Source: Novosphingobium sp. FSW06-99 (GTDB taxonomy: Bacteria; Pseudomonadota; Alphaproteobacteria; Sphingomonadales; Sphingomonadaceae). From it: a stretch of 64,000 bases of DNA. How positions within the stretch are numbered: the stretch's first letter is position 1; each line of letters opens with the position of its first letter. This document shows, one piece after another, positions 3,842-60,372 of the stretch. The notes beneath the pieces were generated by a model. That model saw only the letters and a list, made by a program, of their open reading frames with translations. It was not told the DNA's origin and searched no databases. The position numbers were made by a program, and so were the translations under genes. The stretch spans positions 199,432-263,431 of the forward strand of contig NZ_KQ954256.1 in assembly GCF_001519065.1 (NCBI RefSeq), read 5' to 3'.

Positions 3842-3872
3842 GGGGGGCGGAGCGATCCGCCCCCCCTTTTTT
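3842..3872 (+). terminator. Rho-independent terminator after the TonB-domain gene
   Basis: A 10-bp perfect G/C stem (GGGGGGCGGA with TCCGCCCCCC) encloses a GCGA tetraloop and is followed by six T residues, 85 bases after the stop codon at 3757. This is a textbook intrinsic terminator for the plus strand. Confidence 0.9.
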
Positions 3873-3907
3873 GCGCCCGGTTACACCAAGGCTGCACTGA
3901 CGTGCAG

Positions 3908-3996
3908 TCAGACCTCCCACCCCACCTCCCCACCCGACCACCAATGATACCATCAGGCTATGGTGGTCGGGTGGGGAGGTGGGGTGGGAGGTCTGA
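3908..3996. repeat. Perfect long palindrome, 36-bp arms and 17-base loop (copy 1 of a pair)
   Basis: Positions 3908-3943 and 3961-3996 are exact reverse complements over 36 bp; the loop is 3944-3960. There is no T tract on either side. It lies between convergent genes, 23 bases past the minus-strand glycosyltransferase stop codon. The inner arm core GGTGGTCGGGTG (3962-3973) recurs exactly at 58311-58322 in a second long palindrome. The outer arms of the two copies differ in sequence yet remain self-complementary, which implies that pairing is conserved. It may be a REP-like element or a T-less terminator. Confidence 0.9.
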
Positions 3997-4019
3997 ACAG
4001 CGCTTTGCGCGACCTCGTA

Positions 4020-4904
4020 TTAAAGATCCTCGATCCGTTCGGGGGTCAACCGACCACGCAGCACATCGGCAAAGCCCAGCCAATTGCCGCGGACGCGGCC
4101 GATGCGATCGACCCAGGGTTCGGGCCACAGGCTGCGCGCGTGGTTGCTCAGCACATTGCGCACCATCAGGCGCAGCGCCTTGGCACGGGGCATTGTGCCC
4201 TTGCGCCACAGATAGAGCGGATTGTGCACCTGGCTATAGCCAAGCCGCACCCCCGATGTGCGTCCTGCCTTGGTGCCGAGATGCACCCCGACAAAGGCAT
4301 CGGTCTTGACCGTGCGCCCGCGCCGGGCGACCTGCACCGCAAAATCGACATCTTCCTGCCAGCCATACAGCTTCAACCGTTCGTCAAAGCGCAGGCCATC
4401 GAGCGCCGACAGGCGATAGGCCATGTTGCACCCATAGAGATCGGGCACATCGACGATCAGCGCGGGCGGGTGCGCCCCCTTGCGGTCATGCGCGGCAACG
4501 ATCGTTTCGGCGCGGGTATAGGGAATGCCGGGCGTCTTGATCCCGTCGGCCAGCACCACCCCGGTCGCCCCGACAATCGGCGGATGATCGCCGAACAGCG
4601 CGGCCAATCCGGCAATGGCGTGGCGCGAGGGCACGAAATCGTCGTCGAAAAACACCACCACATCGGCATCGCCCGCCAACCGGTCGAGCCCGGCATTGCG
4701 CTGCGCCGGCAATCCGCGCCGCGCCAGCACGACTTCGGCGTCTTTGCGCGTGTGCGGCGGCGGCAAATCGCGATCGCCGGTGACCGCCAGGATGATCCGC
4801 GATGGGGGCAAAGTCTGGCGCCGCAGATCGCCCAGCACGCTGGCAATGCATGCCGGGCGCCCGGTCGAGGCAATGATCACCGCAACGCGCAAGGACAAGG
4901 TCAT
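4020..4904 (-). CDS. Family 2 glycosyltransferase
   Basis: This 294-residue GT-A fold enzyme should transfer a sugar from a nucleotide-sugar donor at the cytoplasmic face of the membrane during polysaccharide assembly. The N-terminus VAVIIASTGRP is the nucleotide-binding strand, FFDDDF (residues 85-90) is the metal-binding DXD-type motif, and GWQEDVDF near residue 185 matches the acceptor-site ED motif. The ATG at 4904 has AAAGGAG 8 bases upstream and overlaps the flippase stop codon (TGATG), so the two are translationally coupled. Its donor and acceptor cannot be told from sequence. Confidence 0.9.
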   Translation of the reverse strand: MTLSLRVAVIIASTGRPACIASVLGDLRRQTLPPSRIILAVTGDRDLPPPHTRKDAEVVLARRGLPAQRNAGLDRLAGDADVVVFFDDDFVPSRHAIAGLAALFGDHPPIVGATGVVLADGIKTPGIPYTRAETIVAAHDRKGAHPPALIVDVPDLYGCNMAYRLSALDGLRFDERLKLYGWQEDVDFAVQVARRGRTVKTDAFVGVHLGTKAGRTSGVRLGYSQVHNPLYLWRKGTMPRAKALRLMVRNVLSNHARSLWPEPWVDRIGRVRGNWLGFADVLRGRLTPERIEDL

Positions 4905-6493
4905 CACAGAGGCTCCTTTGGATAAGGCAGGCGGGGTGGCAACGTTCGGCGAAGGACCAATTGCACACCGGCAAACACGATCAGCAGCGCCAGCCCGTTG
5001 CGCGCCAGCAGCACCACGCCGACCAGACCATGCGCCGCGCCCAGCGGCGGCAGCACGCCGGCCAGCGCCGCAACCGCCAAGCCCGATACCAGCGCCAGCG
5101 CAAACGGTCGCAGCACCTGCCGCGCCGACAGCCCGCCATCGATCACCAGGGTCAGCAGCAGCGGCCCCAGCATCAGGATCGCGGCGACCATGTCGGCCAG
5201 CGCCACCATGGTCAGCCCGAACGGCAGCGCGATCAGGAAACAGGCAAGCCCCGTGCCCGATGTCAGCAGCGCCAGCCGCCGCGTCAGCCAGGCCTTGCCC
5301 AGCAGCGGAAACAGCGGTTCGGCCAACGCCTGCGGCAGGCGGGCAATCATGCCCAGCGACAACAGCATGACCAGACCTGCCGCATCGGTCCATCTGGCCC
5401 CCAGCAGGATCTGCACCACGCCGCCCGCTTCAAACGCAAGCACCACCAGCAGCGCGGCACCGACGGTCACCGCCAGATCGAAAAACTGGTGCGCGGCGGC
5501 CAACAGCCGTCGTGACGGCGCACCTGGACCGGCTGCGCGCGCGGTGATGTCCTGATCCATCGCGGTGCGCAGCCAGGACCAGCCGACCATGCGCGCCGGT
5601 TCGCGAATCACTTCCTGCGCCGTGCCGCCCAGCCGCATCGCCGCGCGATAGAGCCCCACCAGCGCAGGCGAAAACACCGCGCCGATCACCAGCGTGGTCA
5701 GATTGCCCTGCAAATAGGTCAGCACCCGCGCCGCCGTGATATGCATAGAAAACCCGATCATCGCGCGCGCCGCCTTGCGCCCCGGCAATGCCAGCCCCAG
5801 CCGCCCCGCGCCCAGCGTATAGCCGAACAGTTCGACCGCCAGCAGTGCCAGCTTGGCCCAGGCCAGTGCGGCCAGCCCGGCGCCCTGGTGCAGCAGTGCC
5901 AGACCGGTCAGCAGCCCGGCCACTTCACACAGCCATTGCACCACGGCGATGTGCGACAGCCGCCCCGCGCGCGTCAGCACCCCCATCTGCACCGACACCA
6001 GTGGCCGTGCGACGATCCACGGCAACAACAGCGCCGCGATCATAATCAGCGCCGGGTTGATCGCCAGCCGCGCGCCCAGCGCCAGCAGCCCCAGCCCGAC
6101 CGCCACGATGATCGCCCCGGTAACCAGCGCCGCACCGCCCGCCTCGTCAATCTGGCGCGGCGCGATCGCGCACAGCACCCATTCGCGCCACCCCGCCTCG
6201 GCCAGCACGGTCAGTCCCACGATCACCGCATAGGCCAGGCTGAACACGCCGAAATCGGCGGTCGACAGCACCCGCGCGGCATAGAGGAACAGCGCAAACT
6301 GCATCGCCTGCGCGGCAACGCGGGCCAGCGCCAGCCCCCCTGCGCCCATTGCGCGCGATCGCACCCCGCGCCGGTCGGGCCGGGGCAATTCGCGCAAGGG
6401 CGCGGTGGGCGGCAGATCTGCCGCGACGCGGGTGGCGATGGTATCGGGTATCACGCCGCCAAAACACCCGACCTGCGCGCGCCCGGCAACCAT
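4904..6493 (-). CDS. Polysaccharide flippase (Wzx/MATE-like) in the EPS/LPS locus
   Basis: This is a polytopic inner-membrane protein of the lipopolysaccharide/oligosaccharide flippase class, with about 12 hydrophobic helices and the N-terminal pattern (ALARVAAQAMQFALFLYAAR) typical of Wzx-type proteins. It would move lipid-linked oligosaccharide across the inner membrane. The start is uncertain: 6493 gives 529 aa, 6349 gives 481 aa beginning just before the first helix, and the frame stays open to 6688. None has a clear ribosome site. Codons between 6349 and 6580 still look coding, and this part faintly resembles a PfkB-kinase N-terminus (GGVGFNIA). The GT2 gene downstream overlaps it by one base. 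Confidence 0.8.
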   Translation of the reverse strand: MVAGRAQVGCFGGVIPDTIATRVAADLPPTAPLRELPRPDRRGVRSRAMGAGGLALARVAAQAMQFALFLYAARVLSTADFGVFSLAYAVIVGLTVLAEAGWREWVLCAIAPRQIDEAGGAALVTGAIIVAVGLGLLALGARLAINPALIMIAALLLPWIVARPLVSVQMGVLTRAGRLSHIAVVQWLCEVAGLLTGLALLHQGAGLAALAWAKLALLAVELFGYTLGAGRLGLALPGRKAARAMIGFSMHITAARVLTYLQGNLTTLVIGAVFSPALVGLYRAAMRLGGTAQEVIREPARMVGWSWLRTAMDQDITARAAGPGAPSRRLLAAAHQFFDLAVTVGAALLVVLAFEAGGVVQILLGARWTDAAGLVMLLSLGMIARLPQALAEPLFPLLGKAWLTRRLALLTSGTGLACFLIALPFGLTMVALADMVAAILMLGPLLLTLVIDGGLSARQVLRPFALALVSGLAVAALAGVLPPLGAAHGLVGVVLLARNGLALLIVFAGVQLVLRRTLPPRLPYPKEPL

Positions 6494-57400: not shown

Positions 57401-57979
57401 TCAGCCGATCTTCACGACAGTGTCGGAAGAAAATTCATACGGAGGCACCTCAAGATTCTTGGGCGCCGGGCCTTTGCGGATGCGCGCTGCGGTGTCGTAG
57501 ACCGAGCCGTGGCAGGGACAGAAATACCCGCCATATTCACCCTTTACCTCACCGGGCCCCGCGCCGAGCGGAACGCAGCCGAGATGGGTGCACACCCCCA
57601 TGGTGATCAGCCAGTTGGTCTTGTTCGGCTTGGTGCGCTGTTCCAGCGTAGCGGGATCGCGCAACGTGGCGGGATTGACCGCATCGGCCTCGGCGATTTC
57701 CACCGGGGTCAGATTGCGGACAAACACTGGCTGTTTGCGGAACATCGTCTTGATCGCCTGCCCCGGCGCGATCGCCGAGATGTCGACTTCGGTCGAGCTT
57801 TCCGCGAGCACGTCGGCCGATGCGCTCATTTGCGAAATCAACGGAACCAGCACGGCGATCCCGCCGACACCGGCGAAACTGACTGCGGCAATATTGATGA
57901 AATCGCGTCGCCTGACGCCTTCGCCGTGAATTTCAGAAGAGGCGACTGTCGCCCCGTCAGCCTTGAGCAGGTCCGTCAT
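57401..57979 (-). CDS. petA: Rieske iron-sulfur subunit of the bc1 complex
   Basis: This 192-residue subunit has a twin-arginine signal anchor ([20 protein letters not shown]), a hinge, and the 2Fe-2S cluster motifs CTHLGC and CPCHGS. It heads the petABC operon. AAGGAC precedes the ATG at 57979. Confidence 0.98.
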
Positions 57980-58068: not shown

Positions 58069-58231
58069 CGAGGACCGTAATGCTCCATTTATTTCAAGGT
58101 TGCGACTGCCCAAGCGCGCAATGGCGACAGACGTGCGACCCCGACTTTCGACCGGCGTGATAGCCATAAACAAGCTGCTTTGCCAACAGCCATTTTGGTC
58201 TTTGCGGGCAGCCCTTGTTAAGAGTCCGATG

Positions 58232-58257
58232 CAAAATCCGCGCGAGAGCGGATTTTG
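58232..58257 (-). terminator. Bidirectional hairpin CAAAATCCGC/GCGGATTTTG
   Basis: A perfect 10-bp stem around GCGAGA, with A4 and T4 at its base, lies next to the long palindrome. On the minus strand it is about 100 bases past the midA-like stop codon and probably completes termination of that transcript. Confidence 0.6.
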
Positions 58258-58346
58258 AAGACGGCCCCGGCCCCCTTCCCCACCTGACCACCCTACGATA
58301 GTACCTGATGGGTGGTCGGGTGCGGGAGCGGGCCGGGGCCGTCTTC
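58257..58346. repeat. Long imperfect palindrome, 37-bp arms and 16-base loop (copy 2 of a pair)
   Basis: Arms 58257-58293 and 58310-58346 match at 33 of 37 positions; two of the four exceptions are G-U compatible in RNA. It starts 9 bases past the minus-strand methyltransferase stop codon. The inner core shares GGTGGTCGGGTG (58311-58322) and a CCCCACC-GACCACC counterpart with the palindrome at 3908-3996, while the outer arms differ in sequence but still pair. Confidence 0.88.
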
Positions 58347-58355
58347 CTTAATAGC

Positions 58356-59411
58356 TCAGGTTTGAAATCCGGCGCCATCGGGCCAGTCGGGTGCGGCCAG
58401 ACCCAAGACCTTGAACAGCGTCCCCATCGCCTCTGGCGCGGCCAGCCGGTGCGCGGCGGCCCGTATCGTCGGTGCCTGATCAGGCGCGGCCGCGCATAGC
58501 GCTGCTACCCGCGCGCCCAGCCCGAGCGCGATCAGGAACGTGCCCTGTTCGGCCGTGCCCAGCCAGCGCGCGCCACTGCCCGTGGCGATTGCGGGCAGAT
58601 CCGAAAAATCGACGTGTGCGGTCAGATCGGCCTCGCCGGGCCAGGCGAACGGATCGACTTTGGCATGCGCGCGCAAGGCCTGGAGCGAACTGCCGTGTGC
58701 CGGCGCGCTACGCCCGTAATCGATGATCAGCGCGGCACCGCCCTGCGCCGCCAGCCGTCGCGCCACTTCGCCGGTGATCGCGGCCGCGGCGGGGCAGGTT
58801 TCGATGATCGCGCCCGGCTGTGCATCGGCCAGTGCGGGCGGCACTGCCGCATCCATCGGGCGCTCACCCGCAACCGGCACCAGCCGATCGCCACCTTGCG
58901 TACGTTCGAGCCCGACCATGCGTTCGCGCCAGCCAGCTTCGGTGCGCACCAGTTGCCGCACCGGCAGCGCGTCGAGAAATTCGTTGGCCACGATCAGCAG
59001 CGGTGCGTCGTCGGGCAGGCTGGCCATGTCCTGGTGCCATTGCGCTTGGGGGAACAGCCGGGCCTGCACTCTGCGCAAGGCGGTGCTGGCCTCGACGAAA
59101 TGTACCTGGGGGATCAGGCCGAACCGCCGCGCCGCGCCCAGCGCATCGCGCGCCAGGGTACCGCGTCCGGGGCCGAGTTCGACGTAATGCACGGGGGCGG
59201 GCCGCCCGGCGCGGTCCCACACGTCGGCCAGCCACAGCCCGATCAGTTCGCCGAACATCTGGCTGATTTCGGGCGCCGTGATGAAGTCGCCCGCGCTGCC
59301 CAGCGGATCGCGGCTGTCGTAATAGCGCGCGTTCGATTCGGCCATGAATTGCGCCACGCTGATCGGGCCGGTGGCCGCGATCAGGCGAACGAAGCGGTCT
59401 TTGGCAGTCAT
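58356..59411 (-). CDS. MidA/NDUFAF7-family SAM-dependent methyltransferase
   Basis: This 351-residue protein of the COG1565 family has GPISVAQFMAE, the YYDSRDPLGSAGDFITAPEISQ-type signature, the SAM-binding ELGPGRGTLARD and ANEFLDALPV. The mitochondrial homologue NDUFAF7 methylates an arginine of a complex I subunit, so a respiratory assembly role is plausible. It lies 13 bases after lgt on the same strand. The ATG at 59411 begins directly before the conserved core. Confidence 0.93.
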   Translation of the reverse strand: MTAKDRFVRLIAATGPISVAQFMAESNARYYDSRDPLGSAGDFITAPEISQMFGELIGLWLADVWDRAGRPAPVHYVELGPGRGTLARDALGAARRFGLIPQVHFVEASTALRRVQARLFPQAQWHQDMASLPDDAPLLIVANEFLDALPVRQLVRTEAGWRERMVGLERTQGGDRLVPVAGERPMDAAVPPALADAQPGAIIETCPAAAAITGEVARRLAAQGGAALIIDYGRSAPAHGSSLQALRAHAKVDPFAWPGEADLTAHVDFSDLPAIATGSGARWLGTAEQGTFLIALGLGARVAALCAAAPDQAPTIRAAAHRLAAPEAMGTLFKVLGLAAPDWPDGAGFQT

Positions 59412-59424
59412 CGCGCGGGGATCG

Positions 59425-60372
59425 TCAGGCCGGCATCGATTGCACCGCAACGCCCAGCGGCGGGCGACGCAGCGCACGCACGATCAGCGCCACGCCGATC
59501 GCGATCATCGGCAACGTCAGCCACTGACCCATCGACAGCCCGGTGGCGTGGGCAAAATCTTCCAATTGGCGATCGGGCTCGCGGAAATATTCGACCACGA
59601 ACCGCGCCATGCCATAGCCGGTGGCAAAAGTGCCCACCAGCAACCCCTGGCGCCAGCGCGCGCGGGTGGTCCAGAACAGCGTGATCAGCACGGTGCCCAG
59701 CACGATCCCTTCGAGCCCGGCCTCATAAAGCTGGCTGGGATGGCGCGCGATATCACCGCCGCCGGGGAACACGATCGCCCAGGGCAGCGCGGGGTCGGCG
59801 GCGCGCCCCCACAGCTCGCCATTGACGAAATTGGCGCAACGTCCAAGGAACAGGCCGACCGGCACGCATGGCGCGATGTAATCGCACACCCGTATGAAAT
59901 CGAGCCGCCCGCGCCACGACACCCACGCGATTGCCAGCGTCGTGCCGATCAGCCCGCCGTGAAAGCTCATCCCGCCCTGCCACAGCTTTAGCAGGTCGAG
60001 CGGATTGGCAAACAGTTCGGGCGCGTAGAACGTGGCATAGCCCAGCCGTCCGCCGAAGATCACCCCCAGCGTGGCATAGAAGAACAAGTCTTCGGCATGG
60101 CGCTGTGCCATCGGCGCGCCGGGCAGGCGCAATTCGCGGGTAACGTGCCAATAGGCAAAAATGATCCCCACCAGATAGGCCAGCGAATACCATTTTATCG
60201 TGAAAAAGCCCAGATCGAGCGCAATCGGCGACAAATGCAGATTTTCAAAACGGATCGGCGTGTGCGCGCCAGCCAAGGATGCCGCAGCGTCACTCAGCAC
60301 CGGCAGCATGCCGGCGACCGACTGGGCCACCCATTGTGCGACATCGGGGGTTGCGACCGATAGTGACAGCAC
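59425..60372 (-). CDS. lgt: Prolipoprotein diacylglyceryl transferase
   Basis: This 315-residue inner-membrane enzyme adds diacylglycerol to the lipobox cysteine of prolipoproteins. It shows the family's SFHGGLIG (essential His), the Lgt signature GRCANFVNGELWG and RHPSQLYEA, with about seven helices. The start is uncertain: 60372 gives a 21-residue leader before a second ATG; the conserved region begins at LSPIALDLGFF. Confidence 0.95.
   Translation of the reverse strand: MLSLSVATPDVAQWVAQSVAGMLPVLSDAAASLAGAHTPIRFENLHLSPIALDLGFFTIKWYSLAYLVGIIFAYWHVTRELRLPGAPMAQRHAEDLFFYATLGVIFGGRLGYATFYAPELFANPLDLLKLWQGGMSFHGGLIGTTLAIAWVSWRGRLDFIRVCDYIAPCVPVGLFLGRCANFVNGELWGRAADPALPWAIVFPGGGDIARHPSQLYEAGLEGIVLGTVLITLFWTTRARWRQGLLVGTFATGYGMARFVVEYFREPDRQLEDFAHATGLSMGQWLTLPMIAIGVALIVRALRRPPLGVAVQSMPA

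Follow-up and report, generated by a model that had tools for sequence, protein, structure and literature searches.

The window, a 64,000-nt stretch of Novosphingobium sp. FSW06-99 DNA, carries two copies of a long hairpin. One lies between a gene for a Rieske iron-sulphur subunit (57401-57979, minus strand) and a Methyltransf_28 gene; the other is found beside a glycosyltransferase-2 ORF. The features at the two sites are as follows.

58221-58229, unstranded: left terminal sequence AGAGTCCGA, judged from the consensus ends to be a variant of AGAGTCTGA, with a GAGTC (GANTC) site
58232-58257, unstranded: left side hairpin CAAAATCCGC..GCGGATTTTG, from the fold; the module type recurs in other copies
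58257-58346, unstranded: central long hairpin, subfamily I arms with a few mismatches and a 16-nt loop, from sequence and fold
58356-58358, minus strand: TGA stop codon that ends the Methyltransf_28 gene (58356-59477), with 9 nt between it and the hairpin
3892-3907, unstranded: left side hairpin CTGCACTGACGTGCAG, from sequence, fold and module typing
3907-3997, unstranded: central long hairpin, subfamily II arms (3908-3943 and 3961-3996)
4000-4010, unstranded: right side hairpin GCGCTTTGCGC, from sequence, fold and module typing
4020-4022, minus strand: stop codon that ends the glycosyltransferase-2 ORF (4020-5393); the arm lies 23 nt away

The first-pass annotation had linked the two hairpins through a shared core, similar loop lengths and closeness to minus-strand stop codons, and these observations hold. 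The pattern GACCACC-N8..30-GGTGGTC occurs exactly in the window only at the 58257 and 3908 copies (0 in 100 shuffles), the loops measure 16 and 17 nt, and the distances to the stop codons are indeed 9 and 23 nt. The 58257 copy matches a covariance model (R1, described below) at 86.9 bits on the plus strand and 80.4 on the minus strand, and the fold of the region 58240-58360, minus strand, has an energy of -81.9 kcal/mol relative to a shuffle mean of -47.7 (z -8.5, 0/200 shuffles). In the 3908 copy, the two arms of 36 nt are 100% complementary and form 36 perfect pairs with 17 nt between them; the region 3890-4015 folds at -105.4 kcal/mol (z -13.6, 0/200 shuffles). This copy has both side hairpins, and the 58257 copy is without the right one. 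The coordinates assigned at first cover the central arm only, and the element extends further out. The outer arms had been described as unrelated in sequence yet paired through compensatory change. Many pairs are altered on both sides, in agreement with the latter part, but the arms are partly alignable, and "unrelated" is too strong. Alignment of the window copies with 23 others separates two subfamilies that have 26 of 92 columns invariant in common, spread everywhere except over the outermost ~10 columns of each arm. The two window copies are representatives of two arm subfamilies built on one plan.

Genome-wide, the core (allowing one mismatch at most) matched 79 times in the forward and 66 times in the reverse orientation, compared with 31 and 25 for a reversed control, and a search for the paired core gave 56 matches compared with 27. 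The covariance model represents the central arm in 25 aligned copies; it gave 107 strand-wise matches in the 4.79 Mb FSW06-99 genome, and the fetched loci comprise 55 sites, two of them inside the window. The early suggestion of a dispersed structured element is thus supported: rather than two isolated sites with no consistent position, there are 55, and they are biased to gene 3′ ends and convergent gaps. Full-length subfamily I copies (n=16, our selection from the 55), aligned from AGAGTCTGA to TCAGACTCT, are 154-166 nt long and show the order GTCTGA end, side hairpin, central arm of ~35 pairs, second side hairpin and TCAGAC end. The full-length element can fold into a cloverleaf. For the 41 of 55 copies in which the model match spans 86-95 nt, between 26 and 37 of the 37 outermost positions are paired and the loop is 16-19 nt. 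Several types of side hairpin and at least four types of loop recur in differing combinations. In addition, 8/55 copies carry a near-identical extra hairpin of ~46 nt, located in one arm or the other (L024, L028, L030, L045, L053, L060:1929, L061 and L062).

Pairing of the arms is maintained as their sequences change. Over the 25 copies, 98.4% of the cells pair, double-sided changes are seen in 18 of the 35 central pairs, and the covariation score was matched by 0/500 shuffles, counts that overstate the number of independent events because copies within a genome are not independent. Shifting the partner by one column halved the pairing. The number of further pair types is not unusual (55/500 shuffles; 124/500 in a second test). 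Among the full-length copies (n=16), 96.6% of the cells pair for the side hairpin and 79.9% for the terminal stem, the latter being weaker evidence of pairing because its sequence is mostly conserved. The orientation of the loop relative to the side hairpins could be typed in 32 of the 55 copies (the count leaves out the other 23), and 15 loops face one way and 17 the other. Moreover, at one orthologous gap two genomes (G529 and G508) have the same loop type in opposite orientation, as judged by eye. Modules are shuffled and loops inverted among the copies.

Template-switch correction of quasi-palindromes is established. Template switching at replication that corrects palindromes, together with gene conversion that spreads them among copies, might generate covariation without selection or transposition. 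The near-perfect arms despite diverging sequences and the free exchange of modules are what these processes would give. Nevertheless, they cannot alone create new sites, and the conservation of core and arms across the class would be left unexplained, which makes this a very unlikely account of the family.

The position of the copies relative to genes was determined with a purpose-written codon-usage caller, which missed the gene beside 3908-3996. Four sites called inside an ORF and one without a left gene were dropped, and of the remaining 50 FSW06-99 sites, 22 are in convergent, 22 in tandem and 6 in divergent gaps, compared with 11, 63 and 33 for the other gaps of at least 60 nt (n=107). 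The convergent enrichment (22/50 vs 11/107) has a Fisher p of 4e-6; in three of the 22 sites the second gene is >900 nt off, and L029 at least looks tandem by eye, and with the three doubtful calls removed the value is 4e-5 (19/47). At 39/55 sites the caller places a gene 3′ end no more than 70 nt away, giving 54 ends in total. At 10 of these ends a terminal hexamer such as GTCTGA begins 1-2 nt past the stop codon, and at 35 none was recognized. Among 35 sites in five other genomes, classified with the same caller, 7 are convergent, 22 tandem, 2 divergent, 2 inside a gene and 2 unclassified; hence, the convergent excess is clearest in FSW06-99.

These data bear on the possibility that the hairpin is a transcribed 3′-end RNA element, acting in end protection, RNase III processing or blocking of read-through, that is under RNA selection and has dispersed only secondarily. 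The bias to convergent gaps under both counts, the covariation of the arms and the presence of a copy between rpsL and rpsG in five genomes (see below) are in keeping with such a role, and on the transcript strand G-T mismatches outnumber A-C mismatches (24 vs 13), a difference that is not significant (p 0.10). However, insertions at gene 3′ ends would be the best tolerated regardless of function, a T-run directly follows the stem in 0/55 copies, a canonical terminator is present within 180 nt of 3/55, and genomes of the same genus in which the element was not found (3/25 and 6/24 in two sets) speak against it. Collectively, RNA selection is unlikely to be the primary reason for the family. 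An intrinsic terminator was considered as well and rejected, the T-run being absent in all 55 copies; because three copies have a canonical terminator nearby, element and terminator can coexist. Between 57800 and 58800, a terminator scan picked up two terminator-like sites, both located away from the hairpin. A canonical intrinsic terminator is situated at 3843-3874, just ahead of the subfamily II element.

GANTC (CcrM) sites are over-represented at the ends of the element. The 55 FSW06-99 elements together have 38 of them within the 20-40 nt flanking the central arm, against an expectation of 2.3, and the 35 elements in the five other genomes have 17, against 1.5; the expectation is the density of the surrounding loci with genes and gaps pooled, and since the copies are related by descent the counts overstate independent events. 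Inside the central hairpin, only four were seen over the 55 sites. In this context, the CcrM-associated CIR elements of Caulobacter are described in PMC2229807 as two arms joined by a linker with GANTC at the terminal loop. Like the present family, they are alphaproteobacterial, ~110 bp or more in length, built as inverted repeats, intergenic and associated with GANTC. In contrast, the GANTC sites of our element are concentrated at the outer ends and not in the terminal loop, a comparison with CIR1-CIR4 that is based on their description.

The family is widespread and patchy. With FSW06-99 included, it was found in 24/41 genomes of a sample of relatives, in 31/385 genomes across Alphaproteobacteria and in 16/398 across the phylum; in a second same-genus set, 18/24 genomes carry it, or, with the three that are shared with the first set removed, 15 of the 21 new genomes. 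Within one genus the number ranges from none found (G003, G006 and G022) to ~46-50 copies (G005, G010 and FSW06-99). Not every candidate was scored in these searches, and filtering was tighter when there were >40 genomes, so the counts in copy-rich genomes are lower bounds and "none found" does not equal absence. A pattern scan listed at least 104 stretches, and the carriers among them include Novosphingobium, Sphingomonas, Sphingobium, Erythrobacter, Kordiimonadales, Hellea and Minwuia. The element had been proposed to be one of sphingomonads; its presence in several other alphaproteobacterial orders and families shows that this was too narrow. Among the matches listed are also a contig labelled Bacillus sp. 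2B10 with a typical element (L067), a record that is possibly mislabelled, and two Streptomyces contigs (L122 and L161), the first of which looks like a chance match, its arms being missing.

Orthologous sites give a view of gain or loss. At one gap between convergent genes, the stop codons are 144 nt apart in two genomes with the element (G529 and G508), 3 nt apart in G484 and 8 nt apart in G554, that is, the element is present or absent at orthologous positions, as for MITEs. No target-site duplication is visible there, with flanks that differ by 11-23%. FSW06-99 has a subfamily II copy beside the orthologous left-hand (FAD-protein) gene, and in G557 a copy adjoins the other gene of this gap. 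Precise loss could also account for the short gap in G484, because this genome, judged at a different locus, is more closely related to G529. At a second gap, with flanks 95% identical, G015 has the element and G437 a different structured sequence of 175 nt. This sequence (L274/L275) fills exactly the gap of the G015 element, and a 103-nt part matches L078 (2486-2587) at 79%. As to the window copy at 58257, the nearest relative for which both flanks were retrieved (G557) has no such hairpin at the site, and the divergence of its flanks prevents placing of the ends.

Five sphingomonad genomes have the hairpin in the rpsL-rpsG gap, upstream of rpsG, namely Novosphingobium colocasiae, a Pontixanthobacter, a Porphyrobacter, G391 and G171 (loci L145, L071, L137, L200 and L202), with S12 and S7 confirmed through Pfam for N. 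colocasiae only. The Porphyrobacter gap has two copies in tandem, and in G391 and G171 this copy is the only one found. The corresponding gap in one Hellea is short and the hairpin is absent from it. A fixed insertion and a local role are both possible for the rpsL-rpsG copy, and its presence in five genomes suggests that some copies are old and have been kept.

The first-pass annotation had raised the possibility of a REP-like element, to be checked by looking for a REP-associated transposase. PF01797 (Y1_Tnp) was found in 13/41 genomes. Eleven genomes gave 20 or more strand-wise matches; PF01797 was found in four of them (FSW06-99, G001, G010 and G036) and not found in the other seven (G002, G005, G009, G012, G013, G014 and G024). 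The covariance model, run on all 23 Y1_Tnp loci, matched near Y1_Tnp in one of the 13 genomes (G010). The single Y1_Tnp gene found in FSW06-99 is, by eye, flanked by other repeats. These are GTCCCCGGAACTCC-type repeats (L064 1-1100), apparently a separate family.

That the family consists of REPs or REPINs moved by a RAYT (Y1_Tnp) transposase would agree with its hairpin form and 3′ location, which are as in REPINs (PMC3116915 and PMC3733652), and with the one Y1_Tnp gene in FSW06-99. The absence of a PF01797 match from the seven copy-rich genomes, the lack of the model near most Y1_Tnp genes, that of FSW06-99 among them, and the fact that a GTAG or CGTC head is not seen in the element make this highly improbable. 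RAYT as a general mobilizer was rejected on the PF01797 distribution in the 41 genomes and the scan of Y1_Tnp loci. The REP-like label stands for behavior (dispersed, near gene 3′ ends) but not for a general link to the REP-associated tyrosine transposase.

The features can be set beside those of known repeats as their sources describe them. REPINs, too, are dispersed hairpin elements with compensatory changes and a proposed movement as folded single strands (PMC3116915); they differ in that our element lacks Y1_Tnp in most high-copy genomes tested and its arms are not paired REPs. CGTC-tagged REPs have stems of 8-9 bp, loops of 4-5 nt, a CGTC head and a CCA-like tail (PMC3733652). They share with the present family an alphaproteobacterial, patchy, palindromic nature, a location near the 3′ ends of convergent or tandem genes, and, as far as that source goes, no known dedicated transposase. 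In contrast, our element has an arm of ~35 pairs, a 16-19-nt loop, side hairpins and GTCTGA..TCAGAC ends; it thus agrees with the CGTC class in its location at gene 3′ ends in convergent and tandem gaps and departs from it in head, stem and loop size. By the features tested, the element falls outside both the RAYT-linked and the CGTC REP classes. MITEs (ERIC, NEMIS and RUP) are likewise short, non-coding and patchy with inverted ends (PMC2229807, PMC10969869), but our element forms a cloverleaf instead of having one terminal repeat pair, and neither a parent transposase nor a target duplication was found. The bacterial intrastrand triplex motifs (PMC4666352) are a different motif and were set aside. 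A literature search that included sequence strings, in which subscription journals were mostly outside the coverage, gave no description of the family.

Searches for other mobilizing genes were made by clustering of neighboring reading frames. No recurrent transposase beside the copies was recognized by eye in the best 30 clusters from 5089 frames, nor next to 158 hairpins in the best 25 clusters from 715 adjacent frames. The largest adjacent groups in these best clusters are a short-chain dehydrogenase type, the rpsL-rpsG context and the FAD-protein gap.

Taken together, the hairpins probably belong to a non-autonomous mobile palindromic element of Alphaproteobacteria that settles close behind stop codons and has multiplied in some genomes, and that resembles REPINs or MITEs. 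This reading is preferred because of the many sites in FSW06-99 and the range from none found to ~50 copies within one genus, the filled and empty states of the G529/G508 and G484/G554 gap, and the combination of double-changed pairs, near-equal loop orientations and closeness to gene 3′ ends. It is weakened by the failure to find a mobilizing gene or a visible target duplication, by the single filled/empty gap with its possible loss in G484, by the rpsL-rpsG copies, some of which seem old, and by the G015/G437 comparison, in which the alternative state is the other 175-nt sequence and not an empty site. For a mobile element of this kind, insertion would take place a short distance past stop codons, with convergent and tandem gaps as the usual sites, and the element would pass through a folded single strand, either cloverleaf or long hairpin, when it is copied or moved. 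A mobilizing enzyme might recognize this shape together with the GTCTGA..TCAGAC ends. Copying of a folded strand would renew both arms together, such that divergent arms stay complementary, and would allow the loop to be read in either orientation. Once in place, the element would persist as a long hairpin within 3′ untranslated regions.

A bolder version, which we consider quite unlikely, is a class-wide cloverleaf that replicates through a folded single strand without RAYT, has the stop-codon region as its target and is coupled by its GANTC ends to the CcrM cycle behind the replication fork. If mobility is the right explanation, a repeat class that differs in architecture from the REP classes compared here, and that has no known mobilizer, is widespread in Alphaproteobacteria. 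The filled/empty gap, the inverting loop and the GANTC-tipped ends make the replication mechanism, and any link to CcrM, testable. Strong hairpins would moreover be placed in the 3′ regions of many genes and, in some genera, inside the ribosomal str operon.

Rfam matches amount to one tRNA in the window and one tRNA across seven element loci. One full-length FSW06-99 copy, used as query, had no match among 50,697 records of a phage collection and matched 2/72,556 plasmid records, one matched region being a plain gene gap. In IMG/VR, the exact core pattern occurs in two contigs only (L325 and L326). Both have phage-type terminase, portal, capsid or tail genes, which we take to be gene-transfer-agent clusters, and the copies lie between the structural genes.
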